Below, in pieces: positions 8,805 through 42,744 of a stretch of DNA of 64,000 nt; positions within the stretch are counted from its first letter, which is position 1, and each line of letters starts with the position of its first letter. The stretch lies in NCBI GenBank assembly GCA_001788835.1, contig MFXK01000010.1:1-64000 (forward strand), in the 5' to 3' direction. Origin of the DNA: Candidatus Peregrinibacteria bacterium RIFOXYB2_FULL_33_20 (GTDB lineage: Bacteria > Patescibacteriota > Gracilibacteria > UBA1369 > GWF2-33-10). The notes under the pieces are model-generated. The model was given only the letters and a program-made list of their open reading frames with translations. It ran no database searches and had not been told where the DNA came from. The translations under genes were made by a program, and so were the position numbers.

Positions 8805-9065
8805 TTATTGGCGACTTTTGTCGCTCCATTTTTGCCAAGCAACACGAGTTAACTGTTGTTCATTTTGAATAATCGTTATTGCCTTACATTCAGGACATTT
8901 TATGCAAGGCTCATCTCCAGTACTATCCATACCACTTCCTGCAATAAAAATATCATTTTCATTAATTCTAAGTGTTGAACCACAACCATTAGAACCACTG
9001 CCATTGCCACTACATTTAACGTCAATTGTTGAGGGTTTTTTAGTCCCAGGAAATAAAACTTCCAT
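8805..9065 (-). CDS. Small putative zinc-ribbon protein
   Basis: 86 aa. Cysteine pairs VKCSGNGSGSNGCG near residue 17 and CIKCPEC near residue 53 suggest two halves of one zinc ribbon, with a conserved-looking GDEPCIKCP turn. The C-terminus is basic and Trp-containing (TRVAWQKWSDKS). No enzymatic motif is visible. The ~265-base gap to the nucleotidyltransferase is AT-rich without a recognisable gene. Function unknown; nucleic-acid binding is a guess. Confidence 0.6.
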   Translation of the reverse strand: MEVLFPGTKKPSTIDVKCSGNGSGSNGCGSTLRINENDIFIAGSGMDSTGDEPCIKCPECKAITIIQNEQQLTRVAWQKWSDKSRQ

Positions 9066-9146
9066 AATCTAATATTTATGAATTCAAATTACATGCGTAT
9101 AATAAACTCTATTTACCTTTTTGTCAATTTTTTTAGGCGTAAAAAC

Positions 9147-9684
9147 GGATCAAGCGGAAAATGGTTTGAAGAAATTTTGATTTATCGTTAGCAGTCATTC
9201 CAGATTTAGTCTGGAATCCAGTGGAGGATTAACGTCGATAGTGTGGAAATTTATAATGTCCAGAAATTTGTTAAAACAAATAATACAAATCTTTCCAGTT
9301 AGGATTCTCTTTCTCAATTAAATTTATTTTCCATTGTCTTTGCCATGTTTTAATTTGTTTCTCTTTTTCAATTGCTGATATTGAAGTATCAAATTCTTCA
9401 TACCATACTAATCTTGATATATTATATTTTGATGAAAAGCTTTTATTAATTTGTTCTTTGTGTTCATGAATTCTTCTCTCTAAATTATTTGTCATCCCTA
9501 CATATAAAGTACCATTACGTTTACTAGCAATAATATATACAAAATAAGTTTTATCCATCAATAATGAATATGTTTACTGGATACCAGCCTTCGCTGGTAT
9601 GACCTTGCGACAAATAATATCCTATATTTCTGGTCTTTTCATGAATTTTTAAAATTATTTATTCAAACTATTTTCCGCTTGACC
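9147..9684 (-). mobile_element. Mobile cassette carrying a GIY-YIG endonuclease
   Basis: The left end GGATCAAGCGGAAAATGGTT and the right end, read inward as GGTCAAGCGGAAAATAGTTT, are terminal inverted repeats over ~23 bases. The 9-base sequence CGTAAAAAC flanks the element on both sides (9138-9146 and 9685-9693), a target-site duplication. The only gene inside is the GIY-YIG protein at 9271-9558. Each side of the gene carries a palindrome (ATTCCAG/CTGGAAT near 9195-9220 and ACCAGC/GCTGGT near 9580-9600). There is no transposase, so it must move in trans or by means of its endonuclease. A second full copy lies at 60480-61038 and a remnant at 36144-36263. Confidence 0.85.
9271..9558 (-). CDS. 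Single-domain GIY-YIG endonuclease
   Basis: 95 aa. TYFVYIIASKRNGTLYVGMT holds the two halves of the GIY-YIG motif (VYI and YVG), followed by the catalytic Arg region NNLERRIHEHK and the conserved Glu region IEKEKQIKTW. The length and layout fit the UPF0213/YhbQ-like family of stand-alone GIY-YIG domains. I start at ATG 9558, because the copy at 60608 starts at the equivalent Met and the upstream codon is TTG. The two proteins differ at only 8 of 95 positions while intergenic parts differ more, so the protein is probably maintained by selection. Likely role: DNA cleavage during cassette mobility. Confidence 0.88.
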   Translation of the reverse strand: MDKTYFVYIIASKRNGTLYVGMTNNLERRIHEHKEQINKSFSSKYNISRLVWYEEFDTSISAIEKEKQIKTWQRQWKINLIEKENPNWKDLYYLF

Positions 9685-9798
9685 CGTAAAAACTCACTAA
9701 CCCTCCCAAAAAATGATATGCAAATTAAAAATTATACTGATAAATAGATAAGGAAAGAAAACATGGAACTTCAAATAGAGAATGAAAATCTTCAAATG

Positions 9799-9830
9799 TT
9801 TACTGGATTCCAGCCTTCGCTGGAATGACA
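9799..9830. repeat. Stand-alone ATTCCAGC/GCTGGAAT palindrome
   Basis: ATTCCAGC (9808-9815) and GCTGGAAT (9820-9827) flank a CTTC loop, preceded by TTTACTGG and followed by GAC. The same module lies within the GIY-YIG cassettes (TTTACTGGATACCAGC near 9580-9600) and in a relative inside pyrC (60092-60112). It forms a stable hairpin and looks like an independent palindromic repeat. Confidence 0.7.
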
Positions 9831-9842
9831 ATTGACAATTTC

Positions 9843-9864
9843 TCCCTCTCTTTAAAGAGAGGGA
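9843..9864. repeat. Perfect 22-bp palindrome
   Basis: TCCCTCTCTTTAAAGAGAGG plus GA is fully self-complementary, followed on the plus strand by TTTAGGGTGAG and then TTTTT. It sits 15 bases beyond the stop of the PKD gene at 9879. The T-run is on the wrong strand for terminating that gene, so I class it as a repeat that may also act as a terminator. Confidence 0.55.
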
Positions 9865-9878
9865 TTTAGGGTGAGTTT

Positions 9879-12086
9879 TTATTCCACCACTCCCGTTACA
9901 ACAACATTTTTAGTTGTGGAGTCGGTAATGCCATTTTGGTCTCTAACTTCTAATGTAATTTCATAATTTCCAGGTTTTGAATATGTAGCTATAGGTTTTC
10001 GGTCTCTACTTGTTTTGCCATTACCAAAATTCCATAAATAATAAGCAACAGTACCGCCGGCACATGAAGCATCAAATTGGACATCCAAAGGAGCATCGCC
10101 AATAGAGGGTGTCATGTTAAAGCAAGCTTTCAATGAGACAGGTCTAATACTGACTACAACATTAGCTTCAGATTTCGAACCATCAGATCCCACAGCAGTT
10201 ACCTTGGCAGTATAAGTGCCAACAGCATTATATGTATAGCTAATTTGACTGATGTCTATTCGTTTCGTGCCATTACCAAAATCCCATTCATAGCTAATAA
10301 TTTTGCCTTCTGGGAAACTTGATCCGGAAGCGTCAAAATTCACTTTTAACGGCACTTCTCCTTCAATCGGACTAGCAGTCAATACCGCCTCAATGCCATG
10401 AGCCTTTACTTTAACAATAATTGAAGCTTTTGATTCGTTTTTTTCACTATCAATGACTGTCAAAGTCACCTGATATTCCCCTTGTTCTTTAAAAATGTTT
10501 TTCACCACATCTCCACTATCATCAGTCACGCCATCGCCATCAAAATCCCATTTATATTCAATAATATCTTTATCTTTATCCCGACTATTAAGTCCACTGA
10601 AAGTAACACTTAATGGCGCTTCCCCTTCAATATAAGTTTGCTCTTTATCGGTAAATCCTGGAGTCGGCATGATCACAGCAATTGGTGCTGATTTCGGTTC
10701 TATAATGGTGACATCAGAACTATCATCGCCTTTTAAACCATTTTCATCAGTCACAGTCAGTTTGACGGTAAATTTACCAACATTTACAAAGCTGTGATTG
10801 GCTGTTCTGGTATTAGCTACAGAACCATCACCAAAATCCCATAAATATTTAACAATTTGAGCATCGACTGGACTGGCTGATTTGCCGGCATCAAATAAAT
10901 ATGATTTGCCTTTTTCAAATTGTCCATTATCAGAATTAATAGTAATTACCGCTTGAGGATTTTCACCAGCTTTGATCGTAATTTGCTTTTCCGCAAAACT
11001 ATAATTATCATTATTATCAGTCACCCGTAATTTAGCGGTAAAAGTACCAATTTTTTCATAAGTGTATTTAACATTTTCCCCCTCCGCATCATCAAAAAAT
11101 CCATCTTCATCTAAATCCCATTCATATTTTGCAATTGTTCCGTCAGCATCAGCAGATGATGAAGCGTCAAAAGTCACTATCAAAGGCGCTGGCCCAGATT
11201 CGGGATTAATCGTAAAACTGGTATCGGCCACTTGATTAGAAAAAACAACGTCCCGTTCAAATTTATCCTGTTTTTCTGAGCCATCTTTCAAATCTTTGTA
11301 AGTGACAGTCAAAGTGACTTTATATCGGCCAGCATTAGGCCCTTTTTCTTTATATAAATGAGTAATTTTTTGCCCAGTGCCGCTGTCACCATTATCGCCA
11401 AAATTCCACTCATAAGATAAAATTTGATATCTGGCGGGATTCACAACTTTGGCTACATTAGAAGCATCAAAACTAATTTCTAACGGAGCAGTCAAATCAA
11501 CAGTTTGTTCTGGAACTGTTAAAATAAAATTTTGTGGGTTAACGGTACTGGTTTTTCGAGAACTTAAATTAAGGTAAACAAACATCCAACTAATAACTAG
11601 TACCACAAATAATATTGCTCCGATACCAGTCATCATGCCACCTTTCAGTTTAGCCTGCTTATCATCTTTTTTGCTCATAGCAATCTTGAAAATACCAATA
11701 ATAGCAATAATAAATGAGACAAAAACCATGAAACCAAAAGCCGCACTAGTCAGATTAATTAAAAAAGGGATCCAGTCTTCAGGATTAATGCCAAAAATTT
11801 GGATAAAAGGATTAGAAGCGGCATCGGTACTTTGATTAATCAAAAAGAATAAAACCAAAAAAGCCAATACAAAAAAGCTAAATAAGCCTAATATTAACCC
11901 TATAATTAATTTTTTATTTGTTCCTGGCGGTGTTTTTTTCACTTTTAACTGAGAATTTTGTGTGTTTTGAACTTGAGGCGGTTGTTGAGTTACAGCCTGT
12001 TGTAAATTTGGAGAAATAAAATTTGTTTGTGGTTGAAAATTTTGATTTTGATTTGTTGGATTTTGTTGTTTGTTTTCTTCAGACAT
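9879..12086 (-). CDS. Membrane-anchored six-PKD-domain protein
   Basis: 735 aa. A Gln/Asn-rich cytoplasmic tail (1-55) precedes a membrane segment at ~59-82. A two-helix unit follows at ~108-172 (FGFMVFVSFIIAIIGIF, short Lys-rich loop KKDDKQAKLKGG, then GAILFVVLVISWMFVYL), resembling the VirB2/TrbC pilin-like units of the upstream genes. Residues ~195-735 form six PKD domains, each with its W-[DN]-[FL] core (WNFGDNGDSG, WDLDEDGF, WDFGDGS, WDFDGDGV, WDFGNGT, WNFGNGK). PKD domains are beta-sandwich spacers in surface proteins. It is the last gene of a four-gene minus-strand operon. I infer an envelope protein with a long extracellular stalk. Confidence 0.85.
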   Translation of the reverse strand: MSEENKQQNPTNQNQNFQPQTNFISPNLQQAVTQQPPQVQNTQNSQLKVKKTPPGTNKKLIIGLILGLFSFFVLAFLVLFFLINQSTDAASNPFIQIFGINPEDWIPFLINLTSAAFGFMVFVSFIIAIIGIFKIAMSKKDDKQAKLKGGMMTGIGAILFVVLVISWMFVYLNLSSRKTSTVNPQNFILTVPEQTVDLTAPLEISFDASNVAKVVNPARYQILSYEWNFGDNGDSGTGQKITHLYKEKGPNAGRYKVTLTVTYKDLKDGSEKQDKFERDVVFSNQVADTSFTINPESGPAPLIVTFDASSSADADGTIAKYEWDLDEDGFFDDAEGENVKYTYEKIGTFTAKLRVTDNNDNYSFAEKQITIKAGENPQAVITINSDNGQFEKGKSYLFDAGKSASPVDAQIVKYLWDFGDGSVANTRTANHSFVNVGKFTVKLTVTDENGLKGDDSSDVTIIEPKSAPIAVIMPTPGFTDKEQTYIEGEAPLSVTFSGLNSRDKDKDIIEYKWDFDGDGVTDDSGDVVKNIFKEQGEYQVTLTVIDSEKNESKASIIVKVKAHGIEAVLTASPIEGEVPLKVNFDASGSSFPEGKIISYEWDFGNGTKRIDISQISYTYNAVGTYTAKVTAVGSDGSKSEANVVVSIRPVSLKACFNMTPSIGDAPLDVQFDASCAGGTVAYYLWNFGNGKTSRDRKPIATYSKPGNYEITLEVRDQNGITDSTTKNVVVTGVVE

Positions 12087-12113
12087 TTTTAGAAATTTTA
12101 AATTTTAAATTTT

Positions 12114-12275
12114 GAATGTTGAATGTTGAATGTTGAATGTTGTAGTCAGTAGTCGGTAGTCAGTTCAAACTGACTTCTGACTACCGATTACTGACTACTG
12201 ATTACTGACTACCGACTACTGATTACTGACTACCGTCCACTGATTACTGACTACCGTCCACTGACTACCGTCCAC
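12114..12275. repeat. Tandem array GAATGTT / GACTACCGATTACT
   Basis: About four GAATGTT units lead into about ten imperfect units of the TGACTACCG / TGATTACTGAC kind that end at the stop codon of the giant pilin-PKD gene. Units are 7-17 bases, too short and too variable for a CRISPR. The array separates the last two genes of the operon. Confidence 0.75.
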
Positions 12276-15200
12276 TCATTCCTTACTCTGCCTTTTTCCC
12301 AAATATAAAGCTAGTATCAATATACCAAATCCCCCCAATACTTCAAAGAAAATAACCAGGTTAATCTCATTTAAATTGAAAATATCTGCATAAATATTAG
12401 AGATATCAAAAGCAGTTTTATTGGTGTCAAAAACAATTTGTATTGTAGTTTTGTCTGTCGTGCCTTTCGCATCAACCACTTTCATTTGCACTACTATATT
12501 TCCCCATGATTGATCAAAATCCATTACAGCAGTATCATGATAATTATTATCACTATAAGAATAACTATAATTAGCATCATTATCTTTTACGCCATTGCCA
12601 TCGCTGTCAAAATTAGTATTTTTATCAAAATAAAATTGATAAGGGACTTTGCCGCCAGTAGCTTTGAAGGAAAAAGAAATTTTGGCTGGACTACTGGTAA
12701 AATGAATTTTACCATCACTTTGTGATAAATATTTTGAATATTGGCTACTCGGTGTCATAAACATATCCAAAATTCCCGTATTAGATGAAACTGTGCTAGT
12801 AGAGCTAGCATCAAAAACGATATTTAAAGCTGTTTGATCTTTATTGCCTTTGGCATCTATTACTGTGTATTGAGCCTTAAGATTACCCCAAGCACTATTA
12901 TAAGTTAATTTATAAGAACTGTTAATCTGTTCACAATCATTATCACTTTTGCCATCGCCATCATCATCATAATAAGCATTAAAATCAAAACATTCTTCGA
13001 TTTCGCCTAGCCCGCCTTTATGTGAAGGCGTGAAAATTACTGTAGCCTTATCTTGAGTTAAGTGAATTTTGCCATCGCTTGGATTAGCTTTGGGATCGGA
13101 CAATAGATAAACAGTTAACTTTTCCGCATCAATAGTGATAGTCTCTTTAATAGTGAATTTATCGCCTAAACTGTCTTTGATTAATAATGAAATATCGAAA
13201 CTAGAAGCTATGGTAGGCTCGAATTTCACTTCATCAATGCTAACAGTTTCCATATCTTTAATATCACCTTTGTAATCTTCATCATCATTAGTTTTACCAT
13301 TGCCACTTGAATCCCGATTGACATCAGCATCTAAATAATATTTATAAGGAGCAACTCCTCCGGTGGCTGTTACTCGGAAATTCACAACAGAATTGGTTGC
13401 CTCTACATGATAAGAATTGTCGGAACCAAGTGTAATTTTATTTTTATCATTGGAATCATAAGTCATCATTGTGCCACCTAATTCTACAGCTTGCACTGTT
13501 ACATAATTAATTACACTATTAACACTGCCTATGCTATCTTCCACTTTTAATTTAACACGATAGGTGCCAGGCTTGGCATAAGTGTATGTGCCTCCCTGAC
13601 AGGAATCATTGGAAGAATTTTTATCAAATGTTTGATTATCATTATCTTTGTTGCCATCTCCATCATAGTCAATATCAGCATCAAAATCCCAAGTGCAATT
13701 AGTGAGTTCTAAAGAAGAACTACTTGATGTTTGTTGACTTGATGAAACTTTTTCATCAATGGTGGAGTTATTTTCAAATGTTACAATCAAGCCGCTAGTT
13801 GTAGCAACAAATGCAGCTTTGGGCGGATCAGTCAAAGCATCAATGTAGACAGTCACTGGTACTGAAATATTGGTAGCGTTATCATTATCCGTCACCTGTA
13901 AACGTATTGAAACACCTTCATTGGCGACTTTATCAAAAACATGGGAAGTGCTAGCATAATCCAAGGTCTCATCATCATAAAATCCATTGCCATTAAAATC
14001 CCAAGTATATTTTATGATTTTACCATCATCATCATGCGATGAACCAGCATCAAAATTAACCTGTTCTCCAACATAAATGCTTGCTTTATCAACATTAAAA
14101 GAAGCAACTGGATTTTTATTCGGGCCATTTTTTACATCCAAAGTCGGTTCGGTCAAAGTGCAACTTTTGGCCGATTTATCACTATCCACAGTGGCTCCAC
14201 AATTAAGACCTTCTAATATACTATTATTGGTACCGGTTTTATTATTATCATCATCAGTAATTACTAAAGTAAAAATATAATGTTTGACCTTACCCTGATC
14301 ACCATTATTGTTAATAGTCATGATTGTTTCCGAGCTATCAGAACTTTGAGAAGCGACATAACCATTCGCAGTATTATCAGCATCAATATAACCCCATAAG
14401 TATTTCCCTACTTGACCATCAATATCATTAACATTAGCTTTTAATTTTACCTGGACCGGGGTAGTAACATCATCTGGATTCGTCGCATTAATCACATTCT
14501 GAATGAAAAAATTACTAATTTTTGGCTTTTCTTCTTGAATTAAAACTTTTAAATCAGTTTTATTGGTAGAATCATTATTTAAATCCGCCAGTGTTAAATT
14601 AACAATATAAGGTTGATTATTCACTGAAACTTGATCATAAGTTTTGGTAAATACTGGAATGGTTCTGGCTGAAATATCATCCCCAGTCCAGCTAAAGGTG
14701 AGATTTTTGTTATTTGCGCTGTAACTTTCTCCATTCACATCTTTGGAAGCGGTAGCATCAAATTTAAAAGTAGTGGTTTTATTGCCATAAATAATATTGT
14801 TTTCATCAGGGATGAATTCTGACCCGCTATATGAATCATACGCTTTAATAACTGGAAAAGGTTTATCACTTTCCGCAACATATAATTTTCTAGTTAAAAC
14901 GTTAAAATTTTTACTAACATCAGTATCGCTAATCGTAATAGTCACTATATATGTACCAGCAACTGTATAATTACAATAATAATCCACCGTGCTGCTATCA
15001 AAAGACCAATCTATATCATTAATAGAACTATTGGCCAATTTACCTATACCGTCATCACCACAATCAACCGTCAGATCAATGCTATCAATTTTATCCTGAT
15101 TTTCAGCGATATACAAACTATGCAAATCAAAGCCAAATTTTGGCGCATCCAAAGTAGCCACATTGCCAAGAATATATGAATTACTGTTGCCAGAATCATT

Positions 15201-17933
15201 TTCTGGTGGGTTGGTCTGATCAGTTGAGCCAACAGAGGCAATATAAACTATCGCATTTACATCCATTAAGTTATTAACCATGATTTCCCCAGTCGTAGTA
15301 TCAGTTTGTTCCGTGCCTTCAGATCCATTATTGACAGTTAACGTAACTTTATATTTGCCTAATTTTTTAAATCGTACCGCTACTTTCTGTTCATCCAGAA
15401 AATTTTGATTAGCATTAGTATCATAAGGATTTCCCGCACTATCTTCAGTCAAAATAACATAATTATCAGGACTAGCATCAATCGTCCAAGCATATTGTGA
15501 TGAAGTTAACTCTCCTCCAGTGCTGCAACTGCCATCAAAATAATAAGTAGCAGGATTATGTTTATCAGGTACATCATAAATAAAACAACTAACCGGCGGC
15601 TCTGGCAATATAGTCACATCAACTTCAGTGTTATCGCTCACAGGATCAGCATTGTTATCTTGTCCATTCACTACTAAGGTGAATTTATAAGTGCCTGGTT
15701 CAGTAGGAGTCCAATCATATTTAGTTTGATCCTTGGCGTCAGCAATTTCCTGAGAATTAAGCAACCATTGATAACCGCTAATTTTACCTTGAATGGAAGA
15801 GGTGGAAGCATCAAAATGCCAAGTCTTGCCAACATACATATCAGTTGGCGCTTGATAATTTAGTTCCGCATTAGGGTTTTTTATAATTACTTTAAATGGA
15901 AAAGTATCACTAATATCACCCTGTTTTAATATCAATTTGAGATTATATGTACCCAAAGCCACTTCTCCGTTAGCATTTTTTGGGAAATAATATACAAATT
16001 TGCCATCGCCGTTTTGCATTGGTTCTTTATCACCATCAACCTGTAATTCAAAATCATTAATCAATTTATTATTTTGACCAAGAGACTTGCTGGCATCAAA
16101 AGTAATGCCCGCCGCCGCATCAGCTGGAGAAAAATCAATCACCGTATTTTTCACTGACGGTTTGGCAATATAATCGTAAACAATTTTCGTTGTCTGCTGA
16201 TCAGCAGCGCCACTTGAATAAGCTACGATATTTGATTCGGTATTCGCAGGTTCAACAATCAGTCTAGCTGTGGCAATACCCGGAGCATATTTATCTGGAT
16301 ATTTACTATTAACTTTTAATTTTACTATATAAGTAGCAGAATCATAATAAGTACAAACTAAATTATTAGAGCTGCCATCTTCGGCATCGCCTGAACTATT
16401 AGGCACTTCATTGCACATGCCATTCTGGAATGGATCGATTTCATTATATTCGCCATTGCCATTTAAGTCCCAAAAATGTTGTAAACCCTCTACAGTTTCA
16501 TTTGATGGATCAATCGTGCCTAAACTATCAAAAGTCACAGTGCATGGAGCTTTGCACTTCAAAGTGGAAGCATTTAATTTAACATTCACAAAATCAATTT
16601 TTTGCACTCCTTCTTGTAATTTATTAAGAGAATCATTGGCAGTGACGAAATTACTGTCCTTTGGATCATCAGTTAAGGTAATCATCAATCCTTGAGTACC
16701 GCAACTTTTTAAGCTGCTATAATCAATATAAACACAAGGATTAGTGGTGCTATTAGGCAGTGATAAAATAGAATTATATAGTTTCTTAACTGTATTACTA
16801 TCATCCAGATCAACAAATATGCTATTCATATCAATATATTCAACCATCATTTGATACATGCCTTTCTGATAATCAGCACTAATAGCTGTGTTTAAATCTG
16901 TAATACATTGATCATAAGTATCCACACCACATAAACTGGCTGGTTTAGCGTAAATTTTCTCAATCCAATCTGGTATAAATGAAGTGGAAGGGGCAACATT
17001 AATTGCATCTTTCACACTTTTAGCACTGTTATAGGTTTCGCTATACTGATCCACGCTTTTCATGATGAAATCCAAAGTATTATTAACCTTTTGTAAATCA
17101 TCGGCAATAGTGGGATCCAAGGCTTCCAAATCAGGAATCATAGGACTAATCACCTTCATGTATAAACCGTAAACATTATTCAAATTACTAGAAACCGTGC
17201 CTAAATCTGCTATTACATTATCCTTGGTATCATTATTAAAAGCGGTCGTGCCCTGAGTGGTTTCAATTTGTCCAGTGCCGGTTCCAATAATCTCTTCTTC
17301 TTTACCAGTCGGCGCCTGAATGACAGTATTGACTATGGCGTAAGAAGCCATAATTACCAAAAGGCCGATTATGGTATATTTAATCCCCTCTTTGCCCTTG
17401 TCAGCTGTTTCAGAAACACCGGAAAATAAATACAAAGAGCCGGAATAAATAATGCCTATCACCGCTACGAACCCCAAAAAACCTAAAGCAAAATTAATCA
17501 CTGTCGTGATATAATCCCTGATATTATCAGATCTAGTAATAGCTGGATCATAAGCTTCCTTCTGCAGATCGTTTAATTGACCATCAAATTGCGTGAAACT
17601 CACAAATTGCTGATTGCCATACAAATATTCATCACAATTATAAAGATCATAAATCACATCATCAAAATTGACACAGTAACAAAAATAAGAACCGCTACTA
17701 GTATCATCAGAACTGGCCTTACAAGTAGCATTATCACCGTGAACTTGCTTGACATAGCTCTGAGAACATTGCGGACTGAACCAGTCTACATAAGCAGCAC
17801 AGGCTTCAGAATCAAACACTGTTGAATTTCCATCATCAGCTAAAGCTGATTTAGTTAAAGGTCCAAAACACACAGTCACTAAAATTAATAAACAAATTTT
17901 AAGACCTAAATAATGATTTGCTTTGATAAACAT
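12276..17933 (-). CDS. Giant pilin-unit/PKD surface protein
   Basis: 1,885 aa. A signal peptide (residues 1-32, ending TKSALADD) is followed by a Cys-rich head of ~8 Cys (CAAYVDWFSPQC, SYFCYCVNFDD). A two-helix VirB2/TrbC-like unit lies at ~140-205 (INFALGFLGFVAVIGIIYSG; loop SETADKGKEG; YTIIGLLVIMASYAIVNTV). The next ~1,600 residues hold about eight PKD-like domains (WDLNGNGEY, WDFNGNGFYDDE, WDFDADIDYDGDGNKD). Three homologous units follow, each with an Asp-rich calcium-type loop (DADVNRDSSGNGKTNDDED, YYDDDGDGKSDND, KNTNFDSDGNGVKDND). It ends with a membrane helix (LGGFGILILALYLG) and basic tail. Both ends are membrane-embedded, so the ectodomain would form a loop. It lies between the pilin-unit genes and the PKD gene of one operon. 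Likely structural part of a secretion or attachment apparatus. Confidence 0.85.
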   Translation of the reverse strand: MFIKANHYLGLKICLLILVTVCFGPLTKSALADDGNSTVFDSEACAAYVDWFSPQCSQSYVKQVHGDNATCKASSDDTSSGSYFCYCVNFDDVIYDLYNCDEYLYGNQQFVSFTQFDGQLNDLQKEAYDPAITRSDNIRDYITTVINFALGFLGFVAVIGIIYSGSLYLFSGVSETADKGKEGIKYTIIGLLVIMASYAIVNTVIQAPTGKEEEIIGTGTGQIETTQGTTAFNNDTKDNVIADLGTVSSNLNNVYGLYMKVISPMIPDLEALDPTIADDLQKVNNTLDFIMKSVDQYSETYNSAKSVKDAINVAPSTSFIPDWIEKIYAKPASLCGVDTYDQCITDLNTAISADYQKGMYQMMVEYIDMNSIFVDLDDSNTVKKLYNSILSLPNSTTNPCVYIDYSSLKSCGTQGLMITLTDDPKDSNFVTANDSLNKLQEGVQKIDFVNVKLNASTLKCKAPCTVTFDSLGTIDPSNETVEGLQHFWDLNGNGEYNEIDPFQNGMCNEVPNSSGDAEDGSSNNLVCTYYDSATYIVKLKVNSKYPDKYAPGIATARLIVEPANTESNIVAYSSGAADQQTTKIVYDYIAKPSVKNTVIDFSPADAAAGITFDASKSLGQNNKLINDFELQVDGDKEPMQNGDGKFVYYFPKNANGEVALGTYNLKLILKQGDISDTFPFKVIIKNPNAELNYQAPTDMYVGKTWHFDASTSSIQGKISGYQWLLNSQEIADAKDQTKYDWTPTEPGTYKFTLVVNGQDNNADPVSDNTEVDVTILPEPPVSCFIYDVPDKHNPATYYFDGSCSTGGELTSSQYAWTIDASPDNYVILTEDSAGNPYDTNANQNFLDEQKVAVRFKKLGKYKVTLTVNNGSEGTEQTDTTTGEIMVNNLMDVNAIVYIASVGSTDQTNPPENDSGNSNSYILGNVATLDAPKFGFDLHSLYIAENQDKIDSIDLTVDCGDDGIGKLANSSINDIDWSFDSSTVDYYCNYTVAGTYIVTITISDTDVSKNFNVLTRKLYVAESDKPFPVIKAYDSYSGSEFIPDENNIIYGNKTTTFKFDATASKDVNGESYSANNKNLTFSWTGDDISARTIPVFTKTYDQVSVNNQPYIVNLTLADLNNDSTNKTDLKVLIQEEKPKISNFFIQNVINATNPDDVTTPVQVKLKANVNDIDGQVGKYLWGYIDADNTANGYVASQSSDSSETIMTINNNGDQGKVKHYIFTLVITDDDNNKTGTNNSILEGLNCGATVDSDKSAKSCTLTEPTLDVKNGPNKNPVASFNVDKASIYVGEQVNFDAGSSHDDDGKIIKYTWDFNGNGFYDDETLDYASTSHVFDKVANEGVSIRLQVTDNDNATNISVPVTVYIDALTDPPKAAFVATTSGLIVTFENNSTIDEKVSSSQQTSSSSSLELTNCTWDFDADIDYDGDGNKDNDNQTFDKNSSNDSCQGGTYTYAKPGTYRVKLKVEDSIGSVNSVINYVTVQAVELGGTMMTYDSNDKNKITLGSDNSYHVEATNSVVNFRVTATGGVAPYKYYLDADVNRDSSGNGKTNDDEDYKGDIKDMETVSIDEVKFEPTIASSFDISLLIKDSLGDKFTIKETITIDAEKLTVYLLSDPKANPSDGKIHLTQDKATVIFTPSHKGGLGEIEECFDFNAYYDDDGDGKSDNDCEQINSSYKLTYNSAWGNLKAQYTVIDAKGNKDQTALNIVFDASSTSTVSSNTGILDMFMTPSSQYSKYLSQSDGKIHFTSSPAKISFSFKATGGKVPYQFYFDKNTNFDSDGNGVKDNDANYSYSYSDNNYHDTAVMDFDQSWGNIVVQMKVVDAKGTTDKTTIQIVFDTNKTAFDISNIYADIFNLNEINLVIFFEVLGGFGILILALYLGKRQSKE

Positions 17934-17980
17934 AATTTATACATAAAATAATCTTTATATTTTAGCATAAATAAAAAGAA

Positions 17981-18010
17981 CTAAGAACTAAGAACTAAGA
18001 GTTAAGAAAT
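17981..18010. repeat. AAGAACTAAG tandem micro-repeat
   Basis: Three to four head-to-tail AGAACTAAG units fill the gap between two operon genes. The same family lies at 21035-21118, 40239-40262 and inside pyrB. Confidence 0.6.
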
Positions 18011-18059
18011 ATTTGATGTAGATTTTTTAAAAAAATATTGCCTGACAATGATTTCAAAA

Positions 18060-19010
18060 TTAAGAATTAAGAATTTCTTCTCTCACACTCACCTGATCAG
18101 CGGAATCTTGAAATTGGATTAAAGTTTTGGTTACCGCGTATGAACCGGCAGCCAGTAATATACCGACAATCGCGCCGATCATGGCTTTCTTAGCTTTATC
18201 ATTCTGTTCGCCGGCAGCATAAGATGCTACATACAAATAACCAGCATACACAAAAGCAGCCACCGCAATAATAGCAATAAAAGATACCGCAAAGTTGCTG
18301 ATGGAAGCGAACAAAGAATTAGCTTTTGCGACATTAATAGTCGTACCATAATCAGCAAAAATAATATCTTTCATAAATAATTCCGACAACCCAACCGTCA
18401 TCAGCCCCACTGAAGCAAAACCAAGGTGTTTTTTCTGGGAAGTCGTATCTTCGGTGCTTAACATCATGGTAATACCATCTATAACCATGGTTAATACTGA
18501 AATCGCACCAATCAAAATTTCAATAAAGGTATATATACCTTTAAGTTCATACCCTCCGGCCAAAGCGGCTTGTCTAATGGAGTCAATCGACAAATAAACT
18601 TCTCCTCTTTCGCCAAACAATACTTTTTGAATAGCAATATCCGCTATGTATATCAACAACAATCCAATAATAATAGATCCAAGATATTTTTTAAATTCGC
18701 CAAGTTTTGATTCTGAATCAGAACTTGTTACCAAACTAACCCCCATAATAATTATCATCAAAATTGCTAACGGCGCTAAAATATATTTAACTAAATCCAA
18801 TAAATAATAAATACCGCTAGTAATGTTTCTGATGCCTCTCTGGTCAATTGCCTTGGAGTTAATATCGCCTTCATAATTAGTTAAGCCTGTTTGGTCACCA
18901 ATTTCCGTAACAGTGTCAGTAATAGCATTAGCATGTATTAACTTTATGCCTCCAAATATATTTAGAGCTAATATTAAGCCGATCAAACCAATTTTTATTT
19001 TTTTATTCAT
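18060..19010 (-). CDS. Multi-unit VirB2/TrbC-like pilin membrane protein
   Basis: 316 aa. A signal-like helix (residues 5-27, IGLIGLILALNIFGG) precedes three repeats of helix, short charged loop, helix. Unit 1 is at ~66-128 (YILAPLAILMIIIMGVSLV ... GSIIIGLLLIYIA), unit 2 at ~155-212 (ILIGAISVLTMVIDGITMM), unit 3 at ~233-296 (FAVSFIAIIAVAAFVYAGYL ... KKAMIGAIVGILLAAGSYAV). Unit 3 closely resembles the pilin-like conjugal-transfer proteins (Mbov_0395 type) annotated in CPR bacteria and mycoplasma conjugative elements. It sits 25 bases from the upstream paralogue. Probably an inner-membrane or pilus component. No VirB4/VirD4 ATPase is in the window, so the assignment to a type IV system is incomplete. 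Confidence 0.8.
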   Translation of the reverse strand: MNKKIKIGLIGLILALNIFGGIKLIHANAITDTVTEIGDQTGLTNYEGDINSKAIDQRGIRNITSGIYYLLDLVKYILAPLAILMIIIMGVSLVTSSDSESKLGEFKKYLGSIIIGLLLIYIADIAIQKVLFGERGEVYLSIDSIRQAALAGGYELKGIYTFIEILIGAISVLTMVIDGITMMLSTEDTTSQKKHLGFASVGLMTVGLSELFMKDIIFADYGTTINVAKANSLFASISNFAVSFIAIIAVAAFVYAGYLYVASYAAGEQNDKAKKAMIGAIVGILLAAGSYAVTKTLIQFQDSADQVSVREEILNS

Positions 19011-19035
19011 AAATCTACAAACTAAAGACTAATAA

Positions 19036-19968
19036 CTACCCTCCCACTTTTCCACTCACAAAAGTCCCCACGATGGCAAAGGCTCCATAAACCACAACTA
19101 AACCAATAAAAGCATTAGTCATCCATTTCTTAGCTGTTTCACTGCGGCTTTCATCCTGAAAACTGATTACATAATAAATACCGGCTGCGATAAAAACCAA
19201 AATCAGTAAAGGTCCAATAAAACTGACCACAAAATTAGTTGCGCCAATAATTTCTGATAAGGCGGCATTGGCATCAATAGTTGGATTAAGTCCGCTAGTC
19301 TTAGCAATCTGATTGATATCTACTTTATATATAATTTTATCTATAAATGTTCCTGAAAAAAGCACGGTCAACAGTCCCAGGATACTAGCATATAATTTCT
19401 TTTTGGCTTCATCCAGAGCACTGTCATTCTTAAGCGCAGTCACTAATTGACCACCAGCAATAGCGGTAAACAAAGTAGCAATACTTCCTAAAATATACTT
19501 AATAAAAGTAATCACTATATTCGTCGTGTTCTTAAAAAGAGTAACTCTTTGACTGATTTCATAACTACTGCTGAAAGGTCCCCCATTTTTGAAATTTACG
19601 ATTTCCGAAATTGGCATGGCCAAACCAAGAAGTGCTAATCCCAATACCATGTACAGTAACCCTTTTTTCGTTTCATCCAGCTGATCACCGCCCAAACCCA
19701 AAGCTACCAATTTAAAACCTGAATACACAATTAGAGCAATAGCAATCACGCCAATAATATATTTAGCATTTTTGGAAATTTTATCGACTAAATTTTCCGC
19801 ACCAATAGTGCCAGAAGTCCCTACCGCATCAGGCAGATCACCAAACTGACTGGCATTAGGCAGTGGAAAAAATCCAGGGTTATTATCAGCGGCTGAAACT
19901 TTTATGCTATAAAGACTCAGCAACAGCAGTCCTAAAATCAAAATTTTTTTACCAGAAAACAATTTCAT
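19036..19968 (-). CDS. Multi-unit VirB2/TrbC-like pilin membrane protein, first gene
   Basis: 310 aa from the Met at 19968 (MKLFSGKKILILGLLLLSLY, a signal peptide ending near SAADNN). The frame is open to 20061, but those 31 codons are a translated AATTTTGAATT-type repeat (NFEFLIFNFEW), so the downstream start is preferred. Three helix-loop-helix units follow: IIGVIAIALIVYSGFKLVAL, YILGSIATLFTAIAGGQLV, and FVVSFIGPLLILVFIAAGIY with its partner helix FIGLVVVYGAFAIVGTFV. Each short loop is Lys/Asp-rich (DQLDETKKG, ALDEAKKK, SRSETAKK). The layout matches the next gene, pointing to an old duplication and perhaps a hetero-oligomer. Transcribed divergently from secE. Confidence 0.8.
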   Translation of the reverse strand: MKLFSGKKILILGLLLLSLYSIKVSAADNNPGFFPLPNASQFGDLPDAVGTSGTIGAENLVDKISKNAKYIIGVIAIALIVYSGFKLVALGLGGDQLDETKKGLLYMVLGLALLGLAMPISEIVNFKNGGPFSSSYEISQRVTLFKNTTNIVITFIKYILGSIATLFTAIAGGQLVTALKNDSALDEAKKKLYASILGLLTVLFSGTFIDKIIYKVDINQIAKTSGLNPTIDANAALSEIIGATNFVVSFIGPLLILVFIAAGIYYVISFQDESRSETAKKWMTNAFIGLVVVYGAFAIVGTFVSGKVGG

Positions 19969-20044
19969 CCATTCAAAATTAAAAATTAAGAATTCAAAAT
20001 TTCTATAAATTATACCTAAAATTAACCAAAACATCAATTTTTGC

Positions 20045-20074
20045 TTGAAAATGGATAACAATTCAGTCTATAAT
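20045..20074 (+). promoter_or_regulatory. Promoter of the secE-nusG operon
   Basis: TTGAAA (20045-20050) and TATAAT (20069-20074) are separated by 18 bases, 37 bases before the secE start. This is a good sigma-70-type promoter by sequence. Confidence 0.65.
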
Positions 20075-20110
20075 CACTCAGGATTAATTCCCGCTTTTTA
20101 AAAGTTAAAT

Positions 20111-20302
20111 ATGAAAGAAAATTTTATCAAAAATTATCTAAGCAATACGATTGAGGAATTTCATAAGATAACCTGGCCAACCAAGGATAGCGCTATCAAA
20201 CTTACCATGATTGTTTTGATTGTTTGTGTGATTGCCATGATTGTGAACGGAGTGGTGGACTCTATTTTTCAACAATTATTTTCATATTTAATTTTAAAAT
20301 AA
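20111..20302 (+). CDS. secE: Preprotein translocase subunit SecE
   Basis: 63 aa, the short single-helix form. The amphipathic segment NYLSNTIEEFHKITWPTKDS contains the conserved EEFHKITWPT signature, followed by one membrane helix (LTMIVLIVCVIAMIVNGVVD). SecE clamps SecY in the SecYEG channel at the inner membrane. It is the first gene of the secE-nusG-X-rplK-rplA cluster, in the usual bacterial order. No Shine-Dalgarno is evident in the leader TTTTTAAAAGTTAAAT. Confidence 0.95.
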   Translation: MKENFIKNYLSNTIEEFHKITWPTKDSAIKLTMIVLIVCVIAMIVNGVVDSIFQQLFSYLILK

Positions 20303-20314
20303 TTTATGAACCTG

Positions 20315-20335
20315 TCCCGTACGAAAGAAACGGGA
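20315..20335 (+). terminator. TCCCGT/ACGGGA hairpin between secE and nusG
   Basis: TCCCGT (20315-20320) and ACGGGA (20330-20335) enclose a 9-base loop and are followed by TTTAAAATTTAAAAT. This may be an attenuating hairpin or a repeat; the U-run is weak, so read-through into nusG is expected. Confidence 0.4.
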
Positions 20336-20357
20336 TTTAAAATTTAAAATCTCTAAA

Positions 20358-21026
20358 ATGCCCAAAAGCACCAAAAAAATAAACAAAGCTGCTAAAAAAA
20401 ATGATCAAAAAATACAGACAGGCTCTGATCAAGAAGAATTGCAGATTGATGATCAGTCGAAACCAAGCTTCTTTACGAGTACAGGCAAACAAGATCCTAG
20501 CGCTGGCAGAAGATGGTATGTTGTACATACTTATTCTGGCTATGAAAATGCCGTAAAAAAGGCTTTAGAGCAAAGAATTGAAACCATGGGCATGCATGAT
20601 TTTATTTTTAATGTTATCGTGCCAACTGAAAAAGTGATGGTTATGAAAAAAGGTAAGCTTGTAGAAGAAGAAAAACGTATTTTTCCAGGTTATGTTTTGG
20701 TAGACATGACTGTAACTGATGCTTCTTGGTATGTAGTCAGAAACACGCCTAATGTTACCGGCTTCGTAGGGTCAGGGACAGTGCCTGTGCCTGTTTCCGC
20801 TGATGAGTTCAAAATTATTAAGCGACAAATTGGACAACAGGAACCAGTGTTCAAAATTGATGTTAATGTTGGCGATACTGTCACAATCCGCTCTGGACCG
20901 TTTGCGAGATATCAAGGCGTGATTAACTCTGTCGACGATGAAAAAGGTAAAGTTAAAGTGTTAGTTAGTATTTTTAATCGAGAAACTCCAATTGAACTTG
21001 ATTTTGATCAAGTGCAGAAGAAATAA
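20358..21026 (+). CDS. nusG: Transcription elongation/antitermination factor NusG
   Basis: 222 aa. The NGN domain starts near residue 50 (RRWYVVHTYSGYENAVKKAL) and contains FPGYVLVDMTV and WYVVRNTPNVTGFVG. The C-terminal KOW domain has GDTVTIRSGPFARYQGVI. NusG binds RNA polymerase and couples it to Rho or the ribosome. The ~48-residue Lys/Gln-rich extension at the N-terminus (PKSTKKINKAAKKNDQK) is longer than in E. coli NusG and has no recognised fold. It lies 55 bases after secE in the expected operon. Confidence 0.96.
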   Translation: MPKSTKKINKAAKKNDQKIQTGSDQEELQIDDQSKPSFFTSTGKQDPSAGRRWYVVHTYSGYENAVKKALEQRIETMGMHDFIFNVIVPTEKVMVMKKGKLVEEEKRIFPGYVLVDMTVTDASWYVVRNTPNVTGFVGSGTVPVPVSADEFKIIKRQIGQQEPVFKIDVNVGDTVTIRSGPFARYQGVINSVDDEKGKVKVLVSIFNRETPIELDFDQVQKK

Positions 21027-21034
21027 TTTTAAAG

Positions 21035-21118
21035 GATTAAGAACTAAGAATTAAGAACTAAGAAAAATAAAGTATAAAAAAACACTTAGATCTTAACTCT
21101 TAGCTCTTAGTTCTAAAT
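21035..21118. repeat. TTAAGAACTAAG repeats in inverted arrangement
   Basis: Direct units TAAGAACTAAGAATTAAGAA occupy the left side, and the complement TCTTAACTCTTAGCTCTTAG lies on the right, about 30 bases apart, so a long imperfect hairpin can form. It abuts the ATG at 21120 and separates nusG from the next gene. Confidence 0.65.
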
Positions 21119-21119
21119 T

Positions 21120-21788
21120 ATGCCTAAATTCACGTGGATAACTATATTTCTATCAATATTTATCACTGTGGTGGTAACAGAAGTAGTTATCAATGAATAT
21201 ACATTGAATCAAACAGGATCTCTGGCGGCTAACGTCTCTCAAACTGAAACTAATATCAATAATGAGAACGACACTAGTGTCGCGGACATTGCTGCTCTGA
21301 CAACAACTGATGAAAAAATTGAAAAGAATTCCACAACAGCCAATGATCAAATTATTCCAATTATTGATCAGCCAAGTATTACCGAAACGATACTAACTAG
21401 TGCTAAAATTGCTAACGCAGTAATCAAAGAAATCGAATTCAATGGTCAAATGTTTGATTTCCTCAAAATAGACTTTCCAAGCCAATACATAATCCAACAG
21501 AATATATTCAGCGGCCAATCTTACATAGGATTAGCTTATGAAATACATTTTCAAAGCCCTCTGGATGCCGAAGAATATTATATGGAATTAAAAAACAAAT
21601 CTGCGGCACTGGACTTTGCAAAAGTTAATGAGAATAATAGTTTTGGAGAAAAATCCTTTTATATAAATAATAAAAACAAAGAAAATACCGTATTTCTAAT
21701 TTGTAAAGTGGGAACAGTTATATATGGATTTAACTATCCCCATAGCAGTCACGCAATTTTCAAATCCATAGTCGCCTATTTTAAATAA
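21120..21788 (+). CDS. Unknown membrane-anchored protein within the nusG-rplK cluster
   Basis: 222 aa, not recognised. One membrane helix lies at residues ~5-26 ([19 protein letters not shown]). A Thr/Asn/Asp-rich linker (residues ~30-95) precedes an external globular domain of ~125 residues with alternating beta-like segments ([38 protein letters not shown]) and one Cys (FLICKVG). It stands where bacteria normally have nothing between nusG and rplK, starts directly after a micro-repeat, and ends 16 bases before rplK, so it is probably co-transcribed. Lineage-specific envelope protein; function unknown. Confidence 0.75.
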
Positions 21789-21804
21789 CATTTATTATAA
21801 ATTT

Positions 21805-22227
21805 ATGTCAAAAAAAGTAATTAAAATCATCAAGCTACAAATTGGAGCTGGTAAAGCAAATCCCGCTCCCCCCGTTGGTCCAGCTTTGGGTCAAGTTGGC
21901 TTGAATATTCAGCAATTCTGTAACGAATTTAACGAAAAAACCAAAACCGCCGGCGATTCTATTCTGCCGGTTGCCATCACGGTATTTGACAATAAAACTT
22001 ATACTTTTATTGTTAAAAGGCCACCTGCCGCAGAATTAATCAAGAAAAAAATAAACTTAGCCAAAGGCTCAGGTGTCCCTAACAAAGACAAAGTCGGCAC
22101 TCTCACCCAAGCACAATTAAGAGAAATTGCCATCGAAAAAATGCCTGATCTTAATGCCAATGACGTTGAAGCCGCGATGAATATAATTGCCGGTACGGCT
22201 AGGAATATGGGAGTAAAAGTAGAGTAA
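21805..22227 (+). CDS. rplK: 50S ribosomal protein L11
   Basis: 140 aa, normal length. The N-terminal domain has the conserved Pro-rich [20 protein letters not shown], and the C-terminal 23S rRNA-binding domain has [16 protein letters not shown] and a GTARNMGV ending. L11 binds the GTPase centre of 23S rRNA. The alanine-rich linker and the [10 protein letters not shown] helix are intact. It lies upstream of rplA as usual. Confidence 0.97.
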
Positions 22228-22256
22228 AAACTTTACAAACTAAACCTGTGGGAGCC

Positions 22257-22295
22257 TTACCACTCATAGCCCAAAGCTCATAGCTCAAAGCTAAA
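22257..22295. repeat. AGCTCATAGCTCAAAGCT micro-repeat
   Basis: Imperfect units CTCATAGCCCAAAG and CTCATAGCTCAAAGCT lie in the 100-base rplK-rplA gap, another short repeat class of this genome. Confidence 0.45.
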
Positions 22296-22327
22296 CAAGG
22301 CGCCATTACCACTTAAAATTTTTTTAT

Positions 22328-23029
22328 ATGAAAAAACACGGTAAAAAATATCTAGAAGCAATCAAAAAAATCGCCAAAAACAAATATTACAATTTGGAAG
22401 AGGCGGTAACTTTACTTCCACAAGTATCCACCACCAAATTTGATTCCAGCTTAGAAATTCATATCAAATTGACAGTTGATCCCAAACAAGCAGATCAGCA
22501 AATTAGAAATACCGTAGTCTTGCCTCACGGTACAGGAAAAACCGTGAAAATTATTGCCTTTGTTAGTGATGATAAGGTAAAAGAAGCTTTGGAAAACGGT
22601 GCCATCAAAGCTGGCGGGGCAGAATTAATTGAAGAAGTGCAAAAAGGTTTCTTGGATTTCGATAAAGCCATTGCCACTCCTGATATCATGAAAGATCTAG
22701 CTAAAATCGCTAAAATTCTTGGTCCAAAAGGTTTAATGCCTAGTCCAAAAGCCGGAACTGTCTCAAAAGATGTCGCTAAAACTCTTGGAGAAATGATGAA
22801 AGGACGTATTGAGTATCGAAATGATAAACAAGGAATTTTGCATAATTCTATTGCCAAAATTTCTTTCTCTAAAGAAAAACTTTTGGGAAACATCAAAGAA
22901 TATTTGAAAGCAGTCAAAGCTTCTAAGCCAACATCATTGAAAGGCACTTTCATTGAGTCTATCACCCTTGCTCCAACCATGGGTCCTGGTATTAAACTTG
23001 ATGTTAATACCGTAATGAAAGAAGTGTGA
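22328..23029 (+). CDS. rplA: 50S ribosomal protein L1
   Basis: 233 aa, normal length. Conserved blocks include NTVVLPHGTGKTVKI, the signature KILGPKGLMPSPKAGTVSKD, and the C-terminal TLAPTMGPGIKLD. L1 forms the mobile stalk at the E site and in many bacteria represses its own operon by binding the leader. Its stop codon (TGA) lies 9 bases before tRNA-Gln, so the tRNA may be co-transcribed. The usual rplJ-rplL pair does not follow, because the next gene is a mobile-element recombinase on the other strand. Confidence 0.97.
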   Translation: MKKHGKKYLEAIKKIAKNKYYNLEEAVTLLPQVSTTKFDSSLEIHIKLTVDPKQADQQIRNTVVLPHGTGKTVKIIAFVSDDKVKEALENGAIKAGGAELIEEVQKGFLDFDKAIATPDIMKDLAKIAKILGPKGLMPSPKAGTVSKDVAKTLGEMMKGRIEYRNDKQGILHNSIAKISFSKEKLLGNIKEYLKAVKASKPTSLKGTFIESITLAPTMGPGIKLDVNTVMKEV

Positions 23030-23038
23030 CCCCCCCCT

Positions 23039-23112
23039 TGGGGAGTCGTCTAATGGTAGGACAGCGGCCTTTGAAGCCGTATGTGAAGGTTCGATTCCTT
23101 CCTCCCCAGCCA
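23039..23112 (+). tRNA. tRNA-Gln (UUG anticodon), integration site
   Basis: 74 nt with encoded CCA. The acceptor TGGGGAG pairs with CTCCCCA. The anticodon stem GCGGC/GCCGT encloses loop CTTTGAA (anticodon TTG), and the T arm is GAAGG TTCGATT CCTTC. Discriminator G, as usual for Gln. The recombinase gene on the other strand ends inside this tRNA, so the element probably integrated here while keeping the tRNA whole. Confidence 0.93.
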
Positions 23113-24687
23113 TCTGCTATATATAGAGTTAATTTCTGGACTTTGTTCTTTAGTCATGCCTCTTTTCTCTGGTTCTAACCCTAAGTATTCTTCTTCAAGA
23201 GATTTATAGCTCTTTTTTATAGGCACAAGACAATCTTCAAGGTTAATACTTAATCTGGCATCTTTAAGTATAAAGTTCTGACCGAGAGAAACAAAGATCT
23301 CTCTTTTCTTATTAATATCGCCTTCATTAAAATGACTTCTAGCATAAGTAACAAACTTAAAGGTCTTCTCAGTTAATTCAAACCACCTCTCCCCTCTTTG
23401 CTCTGTATTTTGAATACTGCCTTTAAGCTTGGTTATTTCTTCTTTTAGTTTTGCTCTTTCGCTTACGAATTCTTCATCACCTATAAAATCTCTATATCGC
23501 ATTCTTGTAAGATTATCTAACTGAGTTTGCAAAGTATTTAAGGTGTTTAATTGATTCTCATAGATTTTGCCTTTTGTATCGACCTCTTTGTCATTATTGC
23601 TATTTAATATTTCCATGGACCAATCATAGAACTCAGGCAGGATTGTTAAGCTTTCCAATTCTTGATCTATCTGTTTCTCTAACTCATCTGAGCTAATAGA
23701 TTTGTTTTGTGAACACTTATAATCTTTTCTCCTCTTAGTACAATGATAATAAGTATAGCTCTTAGTCTGATTTGTCTTTTTGATATATTTAATTTTTGTT
23801 TCTGCGGTAATCATACAGCCACATTCACCACACTGAATAACACCTGTAAAAGGGAAATCATGAGTCTTAGGTCTAGGCTTACCTTTTCTACCCAAAATCT
23901 CTTGGACCCTATCATATTCTTCAAGAGTAATCATAGATTCATGTTTCCCACTATAAACAGTACCTTTCCATTCAAAATTTCCAGTATAAAAGATATTTGT
24001 AAAAAGTTTATAAATACCACTTGTAGATAAACTCTTATTCCCTAACCTCCTTGTTTTTCTGGTTTTAAATCCCCATTCATTATTTGCAATAGCAAGTATT
24101 TTTGGTGGCGTATAAGCTCCTGTAAGCATCAAGTCCCACATCTTTCTTATTAAATCGAATCTTTCAGGATCTTTTACAATAGTCTTCTCTACAAGATCAG
24201 GCATATAACCTTGAGGTGGTAATGCGGTAAACCAGCCTTTATCTCTTTTACTTTGCATACCTCTTTTTACATTCTTACTCAAATCAAGAATAAACTGATT
24301 AGCTATTCCACTCTCCACATTAAATATAAGAACGTTATCTTCTGGTCTATATTCCCTATCAATTGTTTGAATTGATTTCAAGATTCCTCTCTGAAGTAAC
24401 CATTGAATCCTTGCACTATCAATAGGGTTTCGACTCAAGCGGTTAATTTGCCAACACATAAGCCCTTCAGCTTCCCCTCCTTCTATCCTTTTAAGCATTT
24501 CATCAAATACAGGTCTATTCTCAGGCATTTTTGCAGATTTGGATTCTTTGAATATCTCAATTATATTCAGGTTAAGATTCTTAGCTAACTCTTTTAATCT
24601 ATCTATCTGATCATCAATAGATTGCACTTGTCTGTCCTCTGATTCGGAAGACTTACGAGCGTATAAGAAATATTTTGGTTTTTCCAT
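23050..24687 (-). CDS. Large serine recombinase (integrase)
   Basis: 545 aa. The N-terminal resolvase domain begins PKYFLYARKSSESEDRQVQS, where the Ser of RKSS is the expected nucleophile, and continues to WQINRLSRNPIDSARIQ. A recombinase domain (~150-280; GWFTALPPQGYMPD) and a zinc ribbon (CGECGCMI ... YYHCTKRRKDYKC) follow, then a coiled coil (LNTLQTQLDNLTRMRYRD). The last ~20 residues (GRKESNLHIRLQRPLSYH) are read from the antisense strand of tRNA-Gln, so the C-terminus was formed by the integration junction. It catalyses site-specific integration and excision of the adjacent element. Coding on the opposite strand from rplA marks the element boundary. Confidence 0.95.
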   Translation of the reverse strand: MEKPKYFLYARKSSESEDRQVQSIDDQIDRLKELAKNLNLNIIEIFKESKSAKMPENRPVFDEMLKRIEGGEAEGLMCWQINRLSRNPIDSARIQWLLQRGILKSIQTIDREYRPEDNVLIFNVESGIANQFILDLSKNVKRGMQSKRDKGWFTALPPQGYMPDLVEKTIVKDPERFDLIRKMWDLMLTGAYTPPKILAIANNEWGFKTRKTRRLGNKSLSTSGIYKLFTNIFYTGNFEWKGTVYSGKHESMITLEEYDRVQEILGRKGKPRPKTHDFPFTGVIQCGECGCMITAETKIKYIKKTNQTKSYTYYHCTKRRKDYKCSQNKSISSDELEKQIDQELESLTILPEFYDWSMEILNSNNDKEVDTKGKIYENQLNTLNTLQTQLDNLTRMRYRDFIGDEEFVSERAKLKEEITKLKGSIQNTEQRGERWFELTEKTFKFVTYARSHFNEGDINKKREIFVSLGQNFILKDARLSINLEDCLVPIKKSYKSLEEEYLGLEPEKRGMTKEQSPEINSIYSRWLGRKESNLHIRLQRPLSYH

Positions 24688-42176: not shown

Positions 42177-42273
42177 CTTTTGTCACATGCCAAATTCAGT
42201 GAAACTATCAATGCCTTAAAAGCCTCGGCAGAGGAGGTGGGATTGAAAGGGAATCTTTAGCCTTGAACATTTC

Positions 42274-42690: not shown

Positions 42691-42744
42691 CTTAAAAACT
42701 TTATAGCAACTGATAATGATTTTAATGAAAAGATCAGAGTACTT

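Follow-up and report, generated by a model that had tools for sequence, protein, structure and literature searches.

What kind of envelope structure can be built from pilin-type proteins that are themselves large? This question is raised by four adjacent open reading frames (ORFs), P4, P3, P2 and P1, of Candidatus Peregrinibacteria bacterium RIFOXYB2_FULL_33_20 (phylum Patescibacteriota, class Gracilibacteria, order UBA1369). VirB2 is a small single-unit pilin. A first-pass annotation had claimed that P4, P3, P2 and P1 share a unit of the VirB2/TrbC kind (helix, Lys-rich loop, helix) in three, three, one and one copies, that two of them are fused to long PKD regions, and that they may form an undescribed envelope machine for attachment or DNA uptake. 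The ORFs lie in the window, i.e., the whole stretch of 64,000 nucleotides that was analysed (contig C10, positions 1–64,000, of a 1.5 Mb genome in 42 contigs). Judging from sequences and predicted structures, P1–P4 may be membrane parts of a cell-contact apparatus derived from type IV secretion system (T4SS) pilins, a reading for which we regard the case as evenly balanced; the most likely purpose of such an apparatus would be attachment to a host cell.

Pilin-type units in the four proteins

The unit was found in P4, P3 and P2 by the Pfam family PF18895 (T4SS_pilin), whose curated cut-off of 26.6 bits was exceeded by P4 (56.4 bits, three stretches), P3 (51.0 bits, three stretches) and P2 (31.6 bits, one stretch, amino acids 136–203). 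When family members were scanned independently, PF18895 matched 55 of 55 P4-family proteins and 35 of 36 P2 N-termini. Chance likeness of any pair of transmembrane (TM) helices is ruled out for P2–P4 by these scores. The TrbC/VirB2 family PF04956 (cut-off 27.9 bits) scored below its cut-off in the window (P4, 24.1 bits; P2, 17.5 bits), with no row for P3 and none for P1 among the best 25 listed; it matched 24 of the 55 P4-family members at E ≤ 0.001 (best 3.6e-10). The description of the loop as Lys-rich was overstated, since each unit loop of P4, P3 and P2 holds 2–4 K/R plus 2–3 D/E.

Comparison of unit profiles within the order separated two classes. Class I, the canonical pilin type, consists of the P2 unit and the final units of P3 and P4 (mutual scores 112–125; by hhalign, P4c scored 111.6 against the P2 unit and 115.7 against P3c), and class II of P3a, P3b, P4a and P4b (mutual scores 96–115); between-class scores were 48–86. 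P3 and P4 therefore seem to be duplicates of a common ancestor with the layout II-II-I. The P2 unit was the best conserved of those compared, with a mean pairwise identity of 57%, followed by the final units of P3 and P4 (50% and 45%) and the other units (33–40%). It shares 42% identity with a single-unit pilin from contig C35 (17035–17439) and no more than 35% with any other unit in the comparison.

The AlphaFold2 model of P4 (mean predicted local distance difference test score (pLDDT) 81.8) contains three long helical hairpins, with a pLDDT of 90–96 over most of the third. The helices are thus not unrelated ones, as these hairpins, the unit profiles, PF18895 and the permutations described below agree. 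The P4 profile had no matches to solved structures at E ≤ 10. A fold search of the model gave no match at E ≤ 0.001, and the rows returned by VIA were generic, common helical arrangements; VirB2 pilins were not among the fold matches listed, which excludes nothing.

The hairpin of the window P1 is not significant alone (PF18895, 11.9 bits; unit hidden Markov model (HMM), 6.7 bits), and its hhalign comparison with the unit gave a probability of 40, with one of 200 permutations as good. With the unit model, P1 proteins scored above other membrane proteins (median 1.8 vs. 0.0 bits, Mann–Whitney p 0.0005; 33 P1 sequences vs. 37 controls, which probably include one cut P1, that of L063). The decisive evidence came from two P1 orthologues of family f28, L182 and L183, for which a unit model free of P1 rows gave 22.8 and 19.9 bits; with PF18895, the same hairpin scored 24.6 bits in L182 (under the cut-off) and 28.9 bits in L183 (over it), and the remaining four P1 N-termini scanned alongside gave no match at E ≤ 0.1. 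PF18895 matched 11 of 33 P1 N-termini at E ≤ 1 (best 2.7e-4), the unrelated PF06024 also matching. A class-wide P1-hairpin profile (45 rows; segments of L078, L080, L089 and L101, in which the second helix was misplaced, were excluded) matched the unit profile with a probability of only 42, a score reached by none of 300 hydropathy-keeping permutations. Three checks thus speak against chance likeness: the permutations, the controls with other membrane proteins, and the orthologues that score in between. Because L183 exceeds the curated cut-off and the class-wide profile beats 300 of 300 permutations, we take the P1 hairpin to be a degenerate pilin unit, and the 3-3-1-1 layout stands with this qualification.

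Features of the P1–P4 locus and its divergent neighbour (window coordinates)
Feature	Coordinates	Strand	Description and evidence
P4	19036–19968	−	signal peptide and three pilin units; PF18895, AlphaFold2
P4 unit a	19591–19788	−	class II; unit HMM, 53.7 bits
P4 unit b	19327–19521	−	class II; unit HMM, 56.7 bits
P4 unit c	19054–19251	−	class I, canonical pilin type; unit HMM, 64.4 bits
P3	18060–19010	−	316 amino acids; signal peptide and three pilin units; PF18895
P3 units a, b, c	18615–18812, 18357–18545, 18114–18311	−	unit HMM
P2	12276–17933	−	1885 amino acids; PF18895, PKD_4, hydropathy, model
P2 pilin unit	17316–17510	−	class I; unit HMM, 58.2 bits
P2 helical domain	16599–17228	−	amino acids 236–445, between unit and PKD region; AlphaFold2
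P2 PKD-type region with Ca-type loops	12384–16595	−	presumed extracellular; ~1,400 residues
P1	9879–12086	−	735 amino acids; PKD_4, hydropathy
P1 degenerate pilin hairpin	11556–11774	−	weak alone; supported via orthologues L182/L183
secE then nusG	20111–21026	+	divergent neighbour, starts the secE-nusG-rplK-rplA block; secE identified by eye
Adjacent divergent promoter-like matches	20009–20074	.	between P4 and secE; consensus only

PKD ectodomains and conservation of the gene order

The fusion of a pilin unit to a PKD ectodomain is supported for P2 and, with its degenerate hairpin, for P1. P1 consists of a Pro/Gln-rich N-terminus, a TM helix, the degenerate hairpin (formed by two of its three TM helices) and, as had been counted, six PKD domains (PKD_4, 274.2 bits, six stretches, over the Pfam cut-off). 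In P2, a signal peptide, a Cys-containing N-terminal region, the pilin unit and a helical domain are followed by a PKD-type ectodomain and a C-terminal TM helix; PKD_4 is again over the cut-off (68.8 bits, four stretches). The PKD region of P2, which had been put at ~1,600 residues, comes to ~1,400; the helical domain precedes it, and only 4–5 PKD segments are recognisable. Its calcium-type loops were borne out: the motif D-x-[DN]-x-[DNSG]-G occurs six times in the ectodomain vs. 0.66 expected, a number reached in 0 of 1000 shuffles. The first PKD domain resembles those of Ca-binding collagenases (Foldseek probability 1.00, best E 0.005; VIA Z ~9, root-mean-square deviation 2.2–2.5, 83–84 residues). 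The helical domain is mostly modelled with confidence (many ten-residue blocks at pLDDT 84–94); a fold search of the P2 model gave no match at E ≤ 0.001, the helical domain returning only generic helical-bundle matches, and the P2 N-terminal profile gave only weak PKD and generic helical matches among solved structures.

P4, P3 and P2 open with a signal-peptide-like segment (hydropathy and reading by eye), which together with the TM hairpins agrees with the envelope location proposed earlier. P4 is 310 amino acids long when counted from ATG and 341 when counted from a TTG at 20061.

The four ORFs lie on one strand (−), divergent from secE-nusG-rplK-rplA, with gaps of 25, 126 and 189 bp within the P4-P3-P2-P1 set, which is likely to form a single predicted transcript. 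A survey of the gene order, which the first-pass annotation had suggested, revealed that it is conserved. Among 40 loci picked from 89 genomes of the order, favouring long contigs, P3 was found next to P4 in 39, P2 in 39 and P1 in 33, all seven P1 misses being contig ends; nusG was divergent upstream in 36, and the P2 gene was split in two loci (L082 and L090). With P4 as the query, every one of the 89 genomes of the order gave a match at E ≤ 0.001. In 81 of them the match was below 1e-15; in the others, it may come from a different pilin, or the contig may have been lost. Exactly six PKD domains were present in all 32 complete P1 proteins of the order. Within the family itself, one other genome was available for comparison.

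In the class, the P4 profile matched 187 of 241 genomes at 1e-12, and in a sample of the phylum 19 of 286 at 1e-20, all but two of which belong to the class. Named database matches of P4 were mostly from Peregrinibacteria, with some from Peribacteria, Gracilibacteria and Patescibacteria and one labelled Bacteroidetes; this last contig (L131), which carries a P4-family gene, probably belongs to a misbinned or mislabelled genome. Most of 20 class loci around P4 matches had the P4-P3 tandem, and both f20 loci had P2 and P1 downstream. The P1 family was found at 1e-20 in 97 of 241 class genomes (40/45 of the order and 57/196 outside it). Outside the order, P4-profile matches (1e-12) were present in 57 of 57 genomes with P1 vs. 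85 of 139 without it (Fisher p 2e-10, uncorrected for relatedness). Sixteen of the 57 out-of-order P1 loci were examined: 15 had six PKD domains, and in 10 a pilin-unit ORF lay at most four genes away, including P2-like proteins of up to 2,885 amino acids and four-unit proteins. In family f22 (L179, L180 and L189), proteins of 524–592 amino acids with four pilin units are encoded near the P1 orthologue. Several large N-terminally anchored proteins with few or no Pfam matches follow P1 in L075, L077, L078 and L097, and several of these share a short LKG-like motif just past the TM helix.

A putative cell-contact apparatus and its alternatives

In the proposed cell-contact apparatus, the hairpins of P1–P4 would lie in the membrane, with the loops facing inwards and the PKD regions outwards. 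P4 and P3, each with two divergent units and one canonical unit, would form a polytopic ring or platform. The canonical unit of P2 would assemble with it by docking onto this platform, or else onto a filament of a single-unit pilin encoded elsewhere, and the PKD chain of the docked P2 would serve as an adhesive stalk. P1, with its near-invariant number of domains, could be a fixed-length spacer across the wall or S-layer, and the lone VirB4 of the genome might energise pilin extraction. We have less confidence in the platform and in the role of VirB4 than in the apparatus itself. In favour of the apparatus are the PF18895 matches across the P4 and P2 families, the synteny within the order, the co-occurrence of P1 with P4 outside it and the pilin-unit genes often found near P1 there, the closeness of the P2 unit to a single-unit pilin, the steady six PKD domains of P1, the wide presence of VirB4 in the class and the essential T4SS pilins of a saccharibacterium (PMC10633639). 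It is doubtful that P1–P4 go further and constitute a pilin-derived nanomachine in its own right, apart from the T4SS, in which a triplicated-pilin platform, a giant PKD-pilin as deployable stalk and a six-PKD molecular ruler would replace missing T4SS adhesins and VirB6 lineage-wide. The bacteria carrying P1–P4 are tiny and probably host-dependent; to the question of how bacteria of the candidate phyla attach to hosts, an order-wide pilin-stalk operon offers a concrete, testable candidate. The operon also illustrates a route from conjugation pilins to polytopic proteins.

Single-unit pilins are encoded elsewhere in the same genome. A search of the order with the C35 pilin gave, among the 150 matches listed, a short ORF in at least 73, a long ORF in at least 69 and both in at least 58 of 85 genomes, the long ORFs being nearly all P2 giants, with an occasional other fusion possible. 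On contig C6 (L021:10767–12983), five genes for single-unit pilins form an array amid housekeeping genes, with no VirB4 seen within the stretch read. The VirB4-like gene stands alone on contig C28 (L174:8407–10698), between gyrA-like and acetyltransferase-like genes (named by eye). Within a few kb of it is a gene for chorismate synthase; in family f24, such a gene adjoins the P4-P3 tandem (also by eye).

Several observations weigh against the cell-contact apparatus. Neither here nor in the loci read could any T4SS gene, VirB4 and VirB6 included, be recognised next to the operon, and a link to VirB4 by gene neighbourhood was accordingly rejected. The accompanying VirB4, VirB6 and VirD4 of a conjugative T4SS locus, for which the first-pass annotation had advised looking, were not recognised beside the operon, where secE-nusG-rplK-rplA is found instead; VirB4 lies on C28 and the window on C10. 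Family f25 mostly has VirB4 and no P4 match at 1e-12 among the matches listed, so P4 and P3 are not obligatory for a VirB4 system. The fold searches of P4 returned only generic helical matches. Finally, a C-terminal TM helix is present in 21 of 34 P2 proteins (some cut by contig ends) and in none of 33 P1 proteins; P2 may thus be held at both ends, which is a poor fit to a filament tip.

The main rival, which we consider unlikely, is a static envelope scaffold, in which the hairpins are mere TM anchors and P1 and P2 tether the membrane to an S-layer or a neighbour cell, with no filament and no VirB4 step. The lack of recognised T4SS neighbours speaks for it, as do the near-constant six PKD domains of P1, suggestive of a fixed-length spacer, and a protein with three S-layer homology (SLH) domains encoded in the window (30350–31789); yet the P2 unit is both the best conserved of the units compared and the closest to a free pilin, which exceeds the needs of an anchor. 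A rather improbable alternative is that P4 and P3 are the lineage's equivalent of VirB6, a polytopic base of pilin units that nucleates the pilus. Within the class, 20 of 241 genomes had a TrbL/VirB6 (PF04610) match, none of them belonging to the order, VirB4 being near universal (228/241), and the pilus-assembly model proposed for R388 has the pilus growing from a VirB6 pentamer (PMC9259494). However, P3 and P4 gave no PF04610 row at E ≤ 1, and in family f24 a TrbL match occurs alongside P4/P3; a plain VirB6 identity was rejected on these grounds. Taken together, the patterns of f25 and f24 indicate that the operon is not bound strictly to VirB4 and does not simply stand in for VirB6.

What could be said for a DNA-uptake device is that VirB2-type pilins are members of a DNA-transfer superfamily. 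We consider such a device very improbable: across the loci read, no partner that handles DNA was repeatedly present within the operon or next to it (neighbours were judged mostly by length, TM count and profile, and only some by name), and the PKD/Ca-loop ectodomains point to surface contact. Nothing was found that points to the DNA uptake suggested by the first-pass annotation.

The cell-contact apparatus can also be set beside known systems. With TrbC/VirB2 (PF04956), P1–P4 share the two-helix hairpin; they are not small single-unit proteins, as P4 and P3 have three units each and P2 and P1 are far larger. P4 and P3 are polytopic like VirB6/TrbL, but lack sequence similarity to PF04610 and are built of repeated pilin units. 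PKD surface proteins and fibrillar adhesins have similar long PKD chains with Ca-type loops, presumably outside the cell; here, unlike in those proteins, anchoring is through a pilin unit.

In Patescibacteria, PF18895/VirB2 pilins and 441 arrays of 2–11 separate pilin genes have been described (PMC12102498); the available part of that survey reports VirB6 as scarce or absent in Microgenomatia and Gracilibacteria and reports no PrgB-type adhesin. Those arrays share with the P1–P4 locus the hairpin unit, the phylum and the multiplicity of units, but they consist of separate genes, many near virB4, whereas here three units share one chain (four in some relatives), units are fused to PKD regions and no virB4 is nearby. 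T4SS-cluster pilins are essential for epibiotic growth of a saccharibacterium (PMC10633639), an epibiont whose envelope machine likewise includes proteins with pilin units; in contrast to P1–P4, the T4SS genes are linked there, and the available part of that paper mentions no PKD-fused or multi-unit pilin. Other studies report that the highly expressed genes of Patescibacteria in methanogenic cultures include those for T4SS pilins and for a PKD protein (PMC10936435), that Vampirococcus has giant membrane proteins bearing PKD domains (PMC8080830) and that type IV secretion subunits are expressed in Gracilibacteria (PMC11452946). Thus, the word "undescribed" does not hold for PF18895 pilins, their separate-gene arrays or essential T4SS pilins; it may hold for multi-unit and PKD-fused pilins, of which no published report was found in the literature searched, as far as its text was available.

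Neighbouring genes and other features of the window

The gap between P4 and secE contains two good σ70-like promoter matches on opposite strands, which nearly touch. An Rfam scan of positions 9000–24000 gave nothing but one tRNA. At 23039–24687, a tRNA-Gln gene overlaps the end of an ORF for a serine recombinase that runs on the opposite strand; the ORFs that follow the recombinase (at 24867, 26467 and 28885) match no Pfam family and are perhaps part of an integrated element. An att-type repeat of the tRNA-Gln 3′ end was searched for within the window, and none was found. Further downstream (40356–44961), a protein with CoA-ligase and citrate-synthase domains, similar in this to ATP-citrate lyase, is encoded near a monomeric isocitrate dehydrogenase.

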